Source: a virus. From it: 21,392 nt of DNA. Made by a program: the position numbers and the translations under genes. The DNA is taken from the IMG/VR virus record IMGVR_UViG_3300046009_012300, positions 1 through 21,392 of that record, one strand, 5' to 3'. This document shows positions 1-12,399 of the stretch, one piece after another; the stretch's first letter is position 1; each line of letters opens with the position of its first letter. The notes beneath the pieces were generated by a model. The model saw only the letters and a list, made by a program, of their open reading frames with translations. It made no database searches and was not told the origin of the DNA.

Positions 1-375
1 CGCCAGCTCCTTGTCCAGGAACGCGGCGTGCTCGCGGGCGTCGTAGGCGAGCACCTTCGCGTCGTTCGGGTTCGAGAACATGAGCGAGAGCTGCCGGTGC
101 GTCTTCGCGCCGGAGAACGCGCGGACGAGGTTGCCGTCTAGGAACGTGAAGATTCCGGGGAACATGCGGAACTGGAAGCCCGGCGTCACCTCGGAGCCGT
201 CAGCGCACGGGACGCCGACGAAGGTCACGTCCGGGTTCGCGCCCTCGATGTCGCGGAGGACGGGGGCCATCTGGTCGCAGTTTGGGCATCCTGCGGGCTT
301 GTAGAACTCGACGACGAGCCTGCCGGGCGTACCGGCGACCAGCTCGCGGACCTCGGACGGTTTTGCGGTTCTCAT
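1..375 (-). CDS. Thioredoxin-like protein with CPNC active site (C-terminus cut by window edge)
   Basis: The 125 visible residues read as a thioredoxin fold. After a short helix comes a beta strand (LVVEFYKPAG), then the redox motif C-P-N-C at residues 30-33, a helix (DQMAPVLRDIEG), a second strand (VTFVGVPC) and the family's cis-proline loop (MFPGIFTF), followed by a strand with the usual turn (LDGNLVRAFSGAK). Thioredoxins use CGPC, DsbA CPHC and glutaredoxins CPYC, so CPNC is compatible with disulfide exchange but does not fix its direction. No signal peptide is visible, so it probably acts in the cytoplasm or is carried in the virion. The ATG lies 9 bp after the fibre gene stop, suggesting the same transcript. 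An ATG 8 bp further upstream is followed at once by an in-frame stop, so the start at 375 is favoured. The fold is clear; the partner is inferred. Confidence 0.85.
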   Translation of the reverse strand, partial: MRTAKPSEVRELVAGTPGRLVVEFYKPAGCPNCDQMAPVLRDIEGANPDVTFVGVPCADGSEVTPGFQFRMFPGIFTFLDGNLVRAFSGAKTHRQLSLMFSNPNDAKVLAYDAREHAAFLDKELA

Positions 376-384
376 GCGCGCATT

Positions 385-3132
385 CTAAACCCCGACGAGG
401 AACCAGCCAATGCGGGCGTCGTAGGTGCCGGAGCAGCCGGAGTAGTAGGTCGTCCCCTCGCACGTTCCCTGGTCGCCGATGCCGGTGCAGCTCGCGTGGC
501 CAGAGCAGGTGGAGGAGCCGGAATCCCACGAGCAGGCGGACGTGGTGACGGAGCAGCCGGTCTGGGCCGCGCACGCGCCCTCGGAGAGGCCGGAACACGA
601 GCGGTTGTCGCGGGCAGCCTGGAACGTTGCCTTGTCCTTGTAAGAGGGCAGCGTGTAGCTGGTGGTGCCGAACCCGACCGAATCGGAGCCGGTCGGGAGG
701 ATGTTCACGTCCGCGCCGGACGACGAGGCGTTGACGAACGTGACGGTGCGCCCGAGGACGCCGGACGCCGCCGGGAGCGTGACGTTCATGGCGGTCGACC
801 ACGTGCAGCCGGTCTCCGCCGCGCACGTACCGCTGGACGAGTAGCCGCCGCAGGCGACCGTGCCGGAGCAGGCCGCGCCGTAGGTGCCGGTGCAGTTGCC
901 CGTCTCGTAGCTGCCGGTGCATGAGTAGCTGTCGTAGGTGCCGGAGCAGGACGTGAACCACGAGCCGCCGGAGCAAGCGCCCGAGCCGGAGTCGTACTCG
1001 CAGAACGAGCCGCCGTTCGCGCCGTTGCAGGCGGTGCCGTCGCCGCCGCCGTCTGAGTAGTTCGAGCAGGAGTCGGTGTTCGTCGAGCACCCTGACGTCG
1101 CGTTGCAGGCCGACTCGTCGAAGCCGGAGCAGTCCTGCGGGTTGTTGGTCCAGGAGCACCCGGTGTAGCCAGAGCAGCTCATCTCGTCGAAGCTGGAGCA
1201 GGACGCGGTTTCCACGGAGCAGCCTGACTGCCCGGCGCAGCTGGACGGGTCGCCGTTGAACGCGGAGCACGGGTTGCCCGCGAACCAGACGCACGGGAGG
1301 TGCGACTCGCAGGTCGCCTGGCCCGAGCCGGTGTAGGTCGAGCAGGCCGTCACCGACGGCGTTCCGGTGCAGGTCGGGGTGCTGGCGTCGCAGAAGTACG
1401 TGCCCATGTCCCCGGCGGTGAAGCTCTCGAACTTGAACTCGTACCCGAGCGCGAGGCCGCGCGCCGAATGGAGCGTCGTGTGCGCCGCCGAGGTCGAGCC
1501 CGCGTGCACCTTGTCCCCGAAGCTGCCGAAGCCGTAGTGGACGAAGCCGGACGAGTACAGGTACGCGGCGAGCGTGTTGCTGGTGAGGCCGGAGTTGCCC
1601 GAGTACCAGGCGGCCCCGTTGCCGCCGGAGAAGTACGTGTCGATGCCGCCGGAGCTGTTCGCGCCGACGGCGACGCGGAGCAAACCGCCGAAGCGGTAGT
1701 CCGTCCAGGTGTAGCTGTCTGAGTTGTTGAATGTAAACGCGCGCGTTGTGCCCGGCGTGCCGTTGCCCCATCCGCCATCAACGTTGACGCCGCCGGTGTG
1801 CAGGTTGGCGCGGGTGTTCGTGCCGGTCATCGGCACGAGCGACACGTCGTCAATCGATAGGCGCGAGGTGTTCGACGGCGTGAACGAGAGCGCGGCGGTC
1901 GAGGTCGCCACGAAGCGGCACTCGTGTACGCCGTCACCGGAAACGGCGGGGCAGGTGAAGCCGCCAGCCGACGGGGTGACGGTGCCGGCCGTCCATCCGG
2001 AAACGGTGTATCGCAGGCGGTACTCGCGGGTGATTTGCGTCGTCGCGGTGCTCTGCGAAAGCGGGGTCGTGCCGTTGGACGACTTGACCGCCTTGCCGCC
2101 GGACAGCGCGAACGAGCCGAACGACCACCCAGAGGACGAGGTGAAGCCGCCGTTGGTTACCACGTCGGTGCCGGTGGTCGAGAAGATGGACAGGCGGTTG
2201 AGCGAGTCGTCGTAGTAGAGGCCAGCGTTGTCCTGGGACAGCAAACCAGCCGCACCGAAGAACGGCACGGAGCCGGGCGTCATGGAATTGAAGTTCCACC
2301 CGCCGTAGGCCGTCGCGTTAACCCCGCCGCCCTGGCCGAACGACAGGACGTTGCCGCCGGACTGGTTCTGGAGGTTCCCGCCGCCGGAGCCGTGCGCCCG
2401 GAGCCCGGAACCCTCGAACGAGTACGAGCCGATGTCCACGTCGCCGGTCGCGCCGGTGTACGGGACGAGGCCGGACGTATCGCCGCCGGTCGACACGGTC
2501 ACGTTCCCGTTGGGGTCCGGCTCGGCGCCGTTGACCGTCTTCACCACCTGCTTCGCCAGGAGGAAGGACGTGCGCTTATCGAGCACGCCGAGCGCGAACT
2601 TTACCTTCTCGTCCATTTTGCCGCCGGTCTCGAACTTCGGAAGGTCGAGTCGGTCCGCGGAGATTTTCTTCGAGGACTCGTTCACCTTGTCGACGACCTC
2701 GTCGGGGGTGATTTGGGTGCCGTCTCTACCAGGAAGGCCGGGGGCGCCGGGGATAGGCTCGGGAACGGTGACGAGCGCGGCCACCTCCTCGGCGGTCGGT
2801 ACGGCCTTGAGCACCTCGGGGATGACCCGGTCGATGATTTCCTCCTCGTCGGCGTCGGCGCCCGGCTCGCCGGGGTCGCCTTTAGGACCCCTGAGCGCCT
2901 CCGTCTCCTCCGGGGTGAGGTCGTAGGTGAATTCTATATCGGAAGGCTTTTTTTTTACTTCGTCAAGGATTTCGCCGGCCGCGGCGCTGACGGCGGCGAC
3001 CACCTCGTCGGACGCGTTAGCGATTTCGCCGGAAAGGCGCTGGGAAACCTCGCCAATTTTGACGTAGGCCGCCTGGGCGGGGTCTTTGCGCGCCAGCTCG
3101 AGCTCCGCCAGTTTCCGCAGCTTCTCGTCCAT
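385..3132 (-). CDS. Large modular tail fibre / receptor-binding protein with collagen-like and cysteine-rich repeats
   Basis: This 915-residue protein is most likely a tail fibre or adhesin. The N-terminal ~75 residues are charged and helical. Short collagen-like Gly-X-Y runs follow at residues 82-93 (GPKGDPGEPGAD) and 129-138 (GAPGLPGRDG). Residues 221-235 hold the 'LVPYTGATGDVDIGSY' module common in environmental phage fibres. Residues 322-434 resemble a carbohydrate-binding module (NGGF...W start, SLVP end). Residues ~450-575 are Gly/Ser/Tyr-rich beta repeats. The C-terminal beta domain (MNVTLPAASG...WFLVGV) carries two cysteine-rich blocks, 581-776 and 846-900, holding 33 of the protein's 35 cysteines. 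The gene is last but one in the visible late block, as expected for a fibre. Its leader shows no strong ribosome site. Fibre identity is inferred from architecture and position; the receptor is unknown. Confidence 0.8.
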   Translation of the reverse strand: MDEKLRKLAELELARKDPAQAAYVKIGEVSQRLSGEIANASDEVVAAVSAAAGEILDEVKKKPSDIEFTYDLTPEETEALRGPKGDPGEPGADADEEEIIDRVIPEVLKAVPTAEEVAALVTVPEPIPGAPGLPGRDGTQITPDEVVDKVNESSKKISADRLDLPKFETGGKMDEKVKFALGVLDKRTSFLLAKQVVKTVNGAEPDPNGNVTVSTGGDTSGLVPYTGATGDVDIGSYSFEGSGLRAHGSGGGNLQNQSGGNVLSFGQGGGVNATAYGGWNFNSMTPGSVPFFGAAGLLSQDNAGLYYDDSLNRLSIFSTTGTDVVTNGGFTSSSGWSFGSFALSGGKAVKSSNGTTPLSQSTATTQITREYRLRYTVSGWTAGTVTPSAGGFTCPAVSGDGVHECRFVATSTAALSFTPSNTSRLSIDDVSLVPMTGTNTRANLHTGGVNVDGGWGNGTPGTTRAFTFNNSDSYTWTDYRFGGLLRVAVGANSSGGIDTYFSGGNGAAWYSGNSGLTSNTLAAYLYSSGFVHYGFGSFGDKVHAGSTSAAHTTLHSARGLALGYEFKFESFTAGDMGTYFCDASTPTCTGTPSVTACSTYTGSGQATCESHLPCVWFAGNPCSAFNGDPSSCAGQSGCSVETASCSSFDEMSCSGYTGCSWTNNPQDCSGFDESACNATSGCSTNTDSCSNYSDGGGDGTACNGANGGSFCEYDSGSGACSGGSWFTSCSGTYDSYSCTGSYETGNCTGTYGAACSGTVACGGYSSSGTCAAETGCTWSTAMNVTLPAASGVLGRTVTFVNASSSGADVNILPTGSDSVGFGTTSYTLPSYKDKATFQAARDNRSCSGLSEGACAAQTGCSVTTSACSWDSGSSTCSGHASCTGIGDQGTCEGTTYYSGCSGTYDARIGWFLVGV
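433..597 (-). repeat. Cysteine-rich repeat block 2 of the fibre protein
   Basis: Residues 846-900 of the fibre contain 8 cysteines in the same pattern as block 1: C-S-G-L-x4-C-x5-G-C-S, then C-S-W and C-S-G-x2-S-C, ending in a C-S-G-T-Y-D unit. The block lies between KDKATFQAARDN and RIGWFLVGV, which read as adjacent strands of one beta domain. Confidence 0.75.
805..1392 (-). repeat. Cysteine-rich PSI-like repeat block 1 of the fibre protein
   Basis: Residues 581-776 of the fibre contain 25 cysteines. The recurring unit is C-S-x-[FYL]-x(3-6)-C-x5-[GP]-C-[STV]-x(4-6)-C, for example CSSFDEMSCSGYTGCSW and CSGFDESACNATSGCS. The second half changes to shorter C-[ST]-G-[ST]-Y units (CSGTYDSYSCTGSYETGNC). 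The pattern resembles PSI/plexin-type disulfide repeats; that resemblance is by eye only. Confidence 0.75.
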
Positions 3133-10856: not shown

Positions 10857-11258
10857 CTAGGACTTTTTGGCCTCTTCCGGGGCCTCGTCGAGCGCGTCCC
10901 TGTGCGCCTTCTCGAGGTTCAGGCGGAACTCCTCGACGCGGTCGTAGATGACCAGGATGACCTTGCCGTCCTGGAGCATGACCTCGCGGGTGTCCTCGGT
11001 GAACTTGAGGAGCGGCTTGAACTTGGACACGACGTAGCCGCGTACGCGGTCGTCGGCCTTCTTCAGCTTCTCCTGCAGCTTCGCGAGCTCGGCGTTCTTG
11101 CCCTCGATTTCCTTGGAGAGCGCGCGGCCCTGGTCGATGATTTCCTTGCGCTTCGAGAGGTCGTCGAACATCTGCTTGGAGCTGAACTCCACGACGCGCT
11201 CGTACGGCTTTAGGTTCACGACCGACTTGCCAGGAGCCTGCTGTACTCGTTTTCCCAT
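10857..11258 (-). CDS. Coiled-coil protein of unknown function (133 residues)
   Basis: A basic N-terminus (GKRVQQAPGKSVVNLKPYER) is followed by a long charged helix with clear heptads (IIDQGRALSKEIEGKNAELA, KLQEKLKKADDRVRGYV), a short beta segment (REVMLQDGKVILVIYDRVEE) and a final helix ending DEAPEEAKKS. Its ATG lies inside the end of the glycosyltransferase gene (43 bp overlap) and has a ribosome-site-like AAGG 7 bp upstream. Placement before the adaptor gene suggests a minor structural or assembly-chaperone role. No family is recognised. Confidence 0.7.
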   Translation of the reverse strand: MGKRVQQAPGKSVVNLKPYERVVEFSSKQMFDDLSKRKEIIDQGRALSKEIEGKNAELAKLQEKLKKADDRVRGYVVSKFKPLLKFTEDTREVMLQDGKVILVIYDRVEEFRLNLEKAHRDALDEAPEEAKKS

Positions 11259-12283
11259 AGTTGTGCCTTATCGGCGATGTTGTAGTTCTTCGTAACGTAG
11301 CGCCGCGCGGCCTTTCCCATCTTCCGCCGCGTCCCGACGTCCTTCAAATTTTCGTACGCTTTCACCCAGTCGTCAAGCGTGAGGCAGACCTCCATGTACG
11401 GCTCGTCCGGCCCCTGGTACGGGGAGCGGCCGTCCGAGAACCCGGAGGCGATGACGGGAATCTCGAGCATCGACATCTCGAGGAACTTCACGTTCGACTT
11501 GCAGCGGTTGAAGTAGTTGTCGGTGCGCGGGATGAGCGCCGCGTCGAGGTCGAGCGACAGGAGCTTGTGCGGGTAGTCGGCGTTGGTGACCGGCTGGTGC
11601 ATCTCCGCGCCGACCGACTCGAAGAAGTCGTGCATCTCCAGGTACAGGCCCGTGAGGACGCCCTCGAGGCGGTCGCGCCGTTGCAGGCCGAGGACGACGA
11701 GCTGCGCCTCGCTCCCGACGCGCTCGAGGAACGGCTTCACGACCTCCCAGTCGCCGGTGGACGCCACGGAGCCGACGATGCCGAGCCGCAGGCGCTCCCG
11801 GTCCGGCTTATCCTCCGGCTCCGGCCAGTCCTCGGGGTCGACGCAGTTCGGCAGCACCACGACGTTCGGGTGGACCTGGCGGTACTCCGCGGCGAGCGTC
11901 TCGGTCGTGCAGGTCACGAGGTCGGCCTCGCGCAGCGCCTCGTATATTTTGGCGTTCCACTTCGCGAGCATCTCGGCCTCGCGCGGGCCGAAGAACTTGC
12001 CCATCGGGACGCCGGACGCCGGGACGTACGTGTCGTCGTTGTCGAACACCACCTTCTTCCCGGCGCCCTTGAGGAGCTTCATCAGCTCGATGCGCGCGTC
12101 GTCGTCCGGGCGGTGGAATACCACCACGTCGGCGTGCGCCGCCAGACGGGCCGCCTCGGTCAGCGGCAGCATCTTCCCGCGGAGCGTGTCGCGCGTGCCC
12201 CACCAGCCGCGCTCGCGCAGCGGCAGCAGGCACCGCACGTAAAAGCAGCCATCGTACTTGGAGCCGATGAAGAAGACGCGCAT
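11216..12283 (-). CDS. GT-B fold glycosyltransferase (GT4-like)
   Basis: Measured from the ATG that overlaps the upstream TAA, the protein has 355 residues and two Rossmann-like halves. The N-terminal half starts MRVFFIGSKYDGC and includes DVVVFHRP (52-59), KVVFDNDDTY (77-86) and the linker VVVLPNCVDPEDW (141-153). The C-terminal half starts LRLGIVGSVASTGDWE (165-180) and carries the nucleotide-sugar-binding region KSNVKFLEMSMLEIPVIASG (262-281), the place of the E-x7-E signature in GT4 enzymes; here E269 and E274 are spaced differently. It probably transfers a sugar from a nucleotide donor in the cytoplasm. Lying between the capsid gene and adaptor genes, it may modify a virion protein, although cell-surface glycan modification is also possible. 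An in-frame start further upstream would overlap the 38-residue gene and is less likely. Confidence 0.85.
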   Translation of the reverse strand: MRVFFIGSKYDGCFYVRCLLPLRERGWWGTRDTLRGKMLPLTEAARLAAHADVVVFHRPDDDARIELMKLLKGAGKKVVFDNDDTYVPASGVPMGKFFGPREAEMLAKWNAKIYEALREADLVTCTTETLAAEYRQVHPNVVVLPNCVDPEDWPEPEDKPDRERLRLGIVGSVASTGDWEVVKPFLERVGSEAQLVVLGLQRRDRLEGVLTGLYLEMHDFFESVGAEMHQPVTNADYPHKLLSLDLDAALIPRTDNYFNRCKSNVKFLEMSMLEIPVIASGFSDGRSPYQGPDEPYMEVCLTLDDWVKAYENLKDVGTRRKMGKAARRYVTKNYNIADKAQLWENEYSRLLASRS

Positions 12284-12399
12284 TAGCCCTTCTTGCGCTT
12301 CGGCGGCGCGACGACCTCGCCGGGGTTCTTGCCGACCCACGTGCGCTGCGGCTTCAGTCCGGGGGCGATGACGACGGGCGGTAGCGGTTGGTTTTCCAT
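12283..12399 (-). CDS. Pro-rich basic mini-protein (38 residues) coupled to the glycosyltransferase
   Basis: This ORF begins MENQPLPPVVIAPGLKPQRT and ends VAPPKRKKG. It contains eight prolines and a basic tail and has no predicted domain. Its TAA shares bases with the ATG of the glycosyltransferase (TAATG), so the two are probably translated together. The start lies 34 bp beyond the capsid terminator and 7 bp after a TACAAT element, which could make a nearly leaderless transcript. Codon use resembles its neighbours. It could be a small virion protein, a glycosyltransferase partner or a leader peptide. Confidence 0.6.
   Translation of the reverse strand: MENQPLPPVVIAPGLKPQRTWVGKNPGEVVAPPKRKKG

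Follow-up and report, generated by a model that had tools for sequence, protein, structure and literature searches.

Cysteine-rich tail-fibre tips and an adjoining thioredoxin-fold gene in metagenomic phages: a putative redox chaperone

Tfa of lambda and gp38 and gp57A of T4 are well-known chaperones of tail-fibre assembly. In filamentous phages, the receptor-binding protein pIII contains disulfides, is exported and is oxidised by periplasmic enzymes of the host. To our knowledge, reliance on many disulfides is without precedent among cytoplasmically synthesised phage tail proteins, and it would be unexpected there because the cytoplasm is a reducing compartment. In bovine antibodies with ultralong CDR H3, a disulfide-rich knob carried by a beta-domain loop has been described (PMC6440498, PMC7498065).

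The present work deals with a tail-fibre gene whose product has a cysteine-rich C-terminal tip, and with the thioredoxin gene that adjoins it. The latter was overlooked by a preliminary description of the same DNA and is new in this analysis; moreover, no prior description of a fibre-thioredoxin pair was found in the open-licence literature.

The fibre gene and its interrupted end domain

The DNA analysed, referred to below as the window, is the 21.4 kb IMG/VR virus record IMGVR_UViG_3300046009_012300 (21,392 nt), the minus strand of which encodes a terminase, a portal, a capsid protein, an SU10-type adaptor and tail proteins. A glycosyltransferase gene (11216-12340, minus strand; phrog_7162, E 5e-33) is located between the capsid and adaptor genes. 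The last complete minus-strand gene of the window is the tail-fibre ORF (385-3132), whose product of 915 aa carries both cysteine blocks in its C-terminal tip and has an end domain matching the folds of phage tail proteins. Thirty-three of its 35 cysteines lie within aa 581-776 (window 805-1392) and 846-900 (433-597), where the preliminary description had put them, and the flanks and motifs quoted there are found verbatim in the sequence, so that the observation of a cysteine-rich fibre tip is confirmed. The probability of finding at least 33 of 35 cysteines in those 251 positions by chance is 2e-17, the intervals having been picked post hoc. One of these residues, C581, belongs to a scaffold strand (YFCDAS) and falls outside the blocks proper, which comprise block 1 (aa 585-779; window 796-1380, minus strand), with 24 cysteines in the first loop, and block 2 (aa 844-905; 418-603, minus strand), with 8 cysteines in the second; the inserts are 195 and 62 residues long, respectively.

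The remaining pieces of the tip, all on the minus strand, form the scaffold. Piece A (1381-1437; aa 566-584, FKFESFTAGDMGTYFCDAS) belongs to the beta domain that was aligned to 24qj, 7rfo and 1qex and in the family alignment, piece B (604-795; aa 780-843) runs from TAMNVTLPAASG to KDKATFQAARDN, and piece C (388-417; aa 906-915, ARIGWFLVGV) is the final strand of the domain. The tip was modelled with AlphaFold2 (aa 546-915, alignment of 17 family members) at a mean pLDDT of 81 but a pTM of only 0.40, so that the model can be trusted for its local folds and not for the way in which they are oriented to one another, knob orientation included. With VIA-align 2, residues 16-370 of this model were superimposed on 89 contiguous residues (610-698) of 24qj, the C-terminal beta domain of the Acinetobacter phage tailspike Solidus_gp83 (Z 12.9, rmsd 1.7 A), and weaker matches were obtained with CBA120 TSP4 (Z 11), T4 gp9 (Z 9.0) and the T4 baseplate chain 5iv5_AC (Z 8.7). 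Since the flanks align with one contiguous stretch of the target, the two blocks are seen to interrupt a single, ordinary beta domain.

Sequence searches point to the same arrangement. Once the flanks are joined, phrog_31104 is matched (E 4e-5) in an alignment that spans the block-1 junction, whereas the intact fibre protein gives no match, and a natural relative with a plain end domain has been found (see below); a tblastn search of the joined flanks against named phages gave no match. When the fibre C-terminus was searched directly in Pfam, PHROGs, NCBIfam, PDB sequences and phage and plasmid records, nothing convincing was obtained, and relatives of the tip were recovered only by joining the flanks or by scanning viral contigs. 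The architecture first proposed, in which a single beta domain accommodates a cysteine-rich block in each of two loops, is supported by the model and by these comparisons. Neither of the two outcomes that would have refuted it has emerged: the flanks do come together as one domain in the structural comparison, and fully readable homologues show no blocks as independent domains in series, the same two sites being used in them. Block 1 is indeed predicted to fold alone, as would be expected of free-standing domains rather than insertions, but such a serial arrangement is scarcely credible, being already contradicted by the contiguous alignment of the flanks with solved structures and with relatives that naturally lack inserts.

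Relatives of the tip and their conserved cysteines

Scans of viral contigs revealed relatives of the tip on about 30 records, of which roughly 20 are distinct, all family members being metagenomic contigs. Both insertion sites are conserved across some 20 distinct homologues; the phages that carry them are otherwise unrelated, their genome backbones sharing almost nothing beyond the fibre, and block 1 is found at the same site in every homologue readable in full. Block 2 is half as long in L107, with 4 cysteines, and absent from L027, where a single scaffold cysteine is present. The plain domain, without either block, occurs in L188 (i-E 4.7e-4 within 727 ORFs), whose capsid protein is 86% identical and whose fibre N-terminus is similar in style; this phage is also devoid of the thioredoxin gene. 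A stalk-based search added only one further contig, which was already known, and of two scans of bacterial genomes for relatives of the blocks, the first gave no confirmed match and the second spurious frames only.

Some members depart from the common layout. In L051, a cysteine-poor copy resembling the plain domain follows right after the inserted domain (2512-2790, minus strand), although its i-E of 0.29 on its own makes it suggestive only. In the full-length fibre of L069, of which L034 is the 3' part, the inserted domain is not terminal and several hundred residues lie beyond it. Furthermore, the BFVD entry A0A6J5M4N0, an 'uncharacterized' fragment from an uncultured phage, is 47% identical over 186 columns, which indicates that members of the family are already deposited in databases without annotation.

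Block 1 is built of repeated C-x(6-12)-C-x5-C modules, a run of C-x-G-[TS]-Y units and one further module, while block 2 is a short form of the same plan, in which a linker connects one three-cysteine module to a CSGTYD unit. Their local alignment scores 130, a value reached by none of 2000 shuffles in which the cysteine positions were kept (maximum 118), so the likeness exceeds what shared cysteine spacing would give, and the earlier suggestion that the two blocks are related cassettes is borne out. Modelled alone, block 1 reaches a pLDDT of 89.3; when it was compared with the PDB, Foldseek gave nothing below E 7 and VIA nothing with Z of at least 2. On the basis of this model, the fold of block 1 apparently has no known match in the PDB, which is no proof of a new fold. 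The Paramecium surface antigen repeat (PF01508) was considered and rejected, its best score being 14.2 bits against a cut-off of 21.2 (E 0.063), with weak matches in 9 of 17 members.

The suggestion that the tip offers a variable surface is not supported. Leaving cysteines aside, pairwise identity averages 60% in block 1, above the 46% of the stalk and the 49% of the scaffold, and block 1 is more identical than the stalk in 71 of 78 pairs, all of which denotes a conserved, not a hypervariable, surface.

Without the scaffold cysteines, block 1 holds 24, 28, 32 or 36 cysteines, depending on the homologue, and block 2 holds 8 in nearly all of them, 4 in L107 and 0 in L027; all 24 cysteines of block 1 are invariant in 21 sequences. 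The fibre contains neither a CxxC nor a CxC motif. With such motifs missing and all block counts even, disulfides are favoured over metal binding, and it is inferred that the tip cysteines are disulfide-bonded, 16 bonds being expected (12 in block 1 and 4 in block 2); disulfide geometry could not be inspected in the tip model. The high cysteine content and the lack of a solved structure leave some room for cysteines that bind metal ions and form no disulfides. Such binding is nevertheless very improbable in view of the cysteine spacings of 6-13, the totals that step by fours at invariant positions and the CxxC oxidoreductase gene alongside.

The thioredoxin-fold gene and its pairing with the tip

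The gene at window positions 1-375 (minus strand) starts 9 nt past the fibre stop codon and is cut by the window edge. Its product carries a GCPNC active site and matches Pfam Thioredoxin (E 3.1e-9; 37.2 bits against a cut-off of 23.5), and both cysteines of the CxxC motif, together with P73 at the conserved cis-proline position, are invariant in the enzyme alignment, A7. Judged by its sequence, this product is a member of the thioredoxin family; thiol-disulfide exchange on the fibre is inferred. The C-terminal tails of the enzymes differ: in the main group a conserved, helical-looking tail contains LFAQRGELTYN, the tails of L066 and L027 end in CDSCQ, and those of L069 and L051 also bear cysteines.

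A CxxC gene of the thioredoxin or glutaredoxin fold lies directly or one gene downstream of the fibre in all 26 contigs that include downstream DNA and whose fibre lacks a visible signal peptide. Among these 26 are L058, L135 and L027, where the fibre N-terminus is off the contig; two further contigs end inside the fibre. The reverse search, starting from the enzyme, found a tip adjoining 22 of 22 loci and added two new contigs, in which the short stretch ahead of the enzyme gene codes for the end of block 2 or for the final strand of the fibre. The enzymes of other carriers are only 14-28% identical to that of the window, and many of the thioredoxin matches fall below the Pfam cut-off, having been accepted on position, CxxC motif and the invariant proline of A7. 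The Pfam Thioredoxin profile gave no match in any of 50 unrelated viral records, nor in any of 47 records from capsid relatives in which no tip was detected. Within one capsid group, the gene is present in all six phages with the tip and in none of the 40 without it (Fisher p 1e-7), the six carriers corresponding to approximately two independent lineages. The pairing of tip and enzyme genes is thereby established by observation, its chemistry being inferred.

The same counts bear on whether the thioredoxin might serve elsewhere, for example as a processivity factor of a DNA polymerase, with its place by the fibre being incidental. The DNA polymerase of T7 does make use of the host's thioredoxin, and there are phages that encode a thioredoxin of their own (PMC3556154, PMC4281155), but a role of this kind is rendered quite improbable by the tight adjacency across unrelated backbones and different thioredoxin/glutaredoxin lineages, and by the lack of the gene in tip-less relatives.

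The signal-peptide predictions rest on a simple heuristic script of our own, and in most fibres of the family no such peptide is visible. One is predicted at the fibre start in three members, L068 (same contig as L031), L069 and L070; an apparent secretion signal is surprising on a fibre-like protein, a virion component whose assembly is cytoplasmic. In L069, the fibre predicted to be exported is followed by a thioredoxin also provided with a signal peptide and with the CPHC motif familiar from DsbA, and the compartments of fibre and enzyme are matched in this one informative case. The tip is present in L068 and L070 with no thioredoxin gene behind the fibre; by a post hoc argument, host periplasmic enzymes could serve these exported fibres.

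These observations also bear on the direction of the exchange. As long as the fibre is in the cytoplasm, the enzyme might hold the cysteines of its tip in the reduced state, with disulfides closing spontaneously after lysis, a role in keeping with the generally reducing bacterial cytoplasm and with the absence of a signal peptide from most of the fibres. However, the active-site motifs of the 20 enzymes examined are CPYC, CPNC, CPKC, CPHC, CSFC or CGNC, the reducing motif CGPC occurring in none, and L069 places a CPHC enzyme in an exported compartment. A protective, reducing role is considered unlikely, without being dismissed, and oxidation or isomerisation of the tip is the inference preferred.

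A putative redox chaperone in the light of known systems

The adjacent enzyme is probably a redox tail-fibre chaperone which would form or edit the disulfides of the tip, this being the best explanation of a conserved, compartment-consistent pairing; no experiment has been made, and activity on the fibre is inferred. The fibre ends in a beta domain of an ordinary kind, the type found in the phage tail proteins 24qj, CBA120 TSP4 and T4 gp9, and two loops of this domain bear related, presumably disulfide-rich knobs made of repeated cysteine modules. A dedicated helper with the thioredoxin fold may form, isomerise or control the 16 disulfides expected in the knobs, acting in the cytoplasm on fibres produced in that compartment, and in the periplasm where fibre and enzyme are both exported, as predicted for one phage. 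Its gene would be a redox version of the chaperone genes often found behind fibre genes. The knobs lie distally on the fibre and most likely touch the host surface; receptor binding by the tip is inferred solely from its position at the fibre C-terminus. A broader proposal, towards which the evidence leans with rather less assurance, is that of a mobile two-gene module of tailed phages in which a disulfide-knob tip of new fold is accompanied by a dedicated, phage-encoded oxidoreductase oxidising or isomerising it in the cytoplasm, different branches of the thioredoxin superfamily having been repeatedly recruited.

The family suggests that some phages carry an enzyme for one structural protein as a solution to the problem of the reducing cytoplasm. 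It offers a testable system of cytoplasmic disulfide formation together with an apparently unmatched disulfide-rich fold, and a naturally occurring case in which stable knobs have been grafted on two loops of a beta scaffold. In addition, a CxxC gene behind a fibre gene provides a genomic signature with which more such systems may be found.

As regards known systems, the fold of the fibre tip is common, over about 90 residues, to Solidus_gp83 (24qj), CBA120 TSP4, T4 gp9 and 5iv5_AC (Z 8.7-12.9), but where the known tail domains have short loops the fibre tip has the disulfide-rich inserts of 195 and 62 residues. The bovine CDR H3 antibodies share the knob-on-loop design, whereas there is no homology with them and the fibre tip has two knobs, built of repeats and conserved instead of hypervariable. 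Within the thioredoxin/DsbA/glutaredoxin superfamily, the window enzyme passes the Pfam cut-off and has the GCPNC site, but it appears to be dedicated to one phage gene, and several of the phage enzymes carry helical-looking or cysteine-bearing C-terminal tails. No matching chaperone family was found for the window enzyme. Its likeness to lambda Tfa and to T4 gp38 and gp57A lies in a small gene directly behind the fibre and in the proposed aid to tip folding; unlike them, it has a thioredoxin fold and a CxxC motif. Finally, in contrast to pIII of the filamentous phages, the putative helper is encoded here by the phage itself, and the fibre is mostly not exported.
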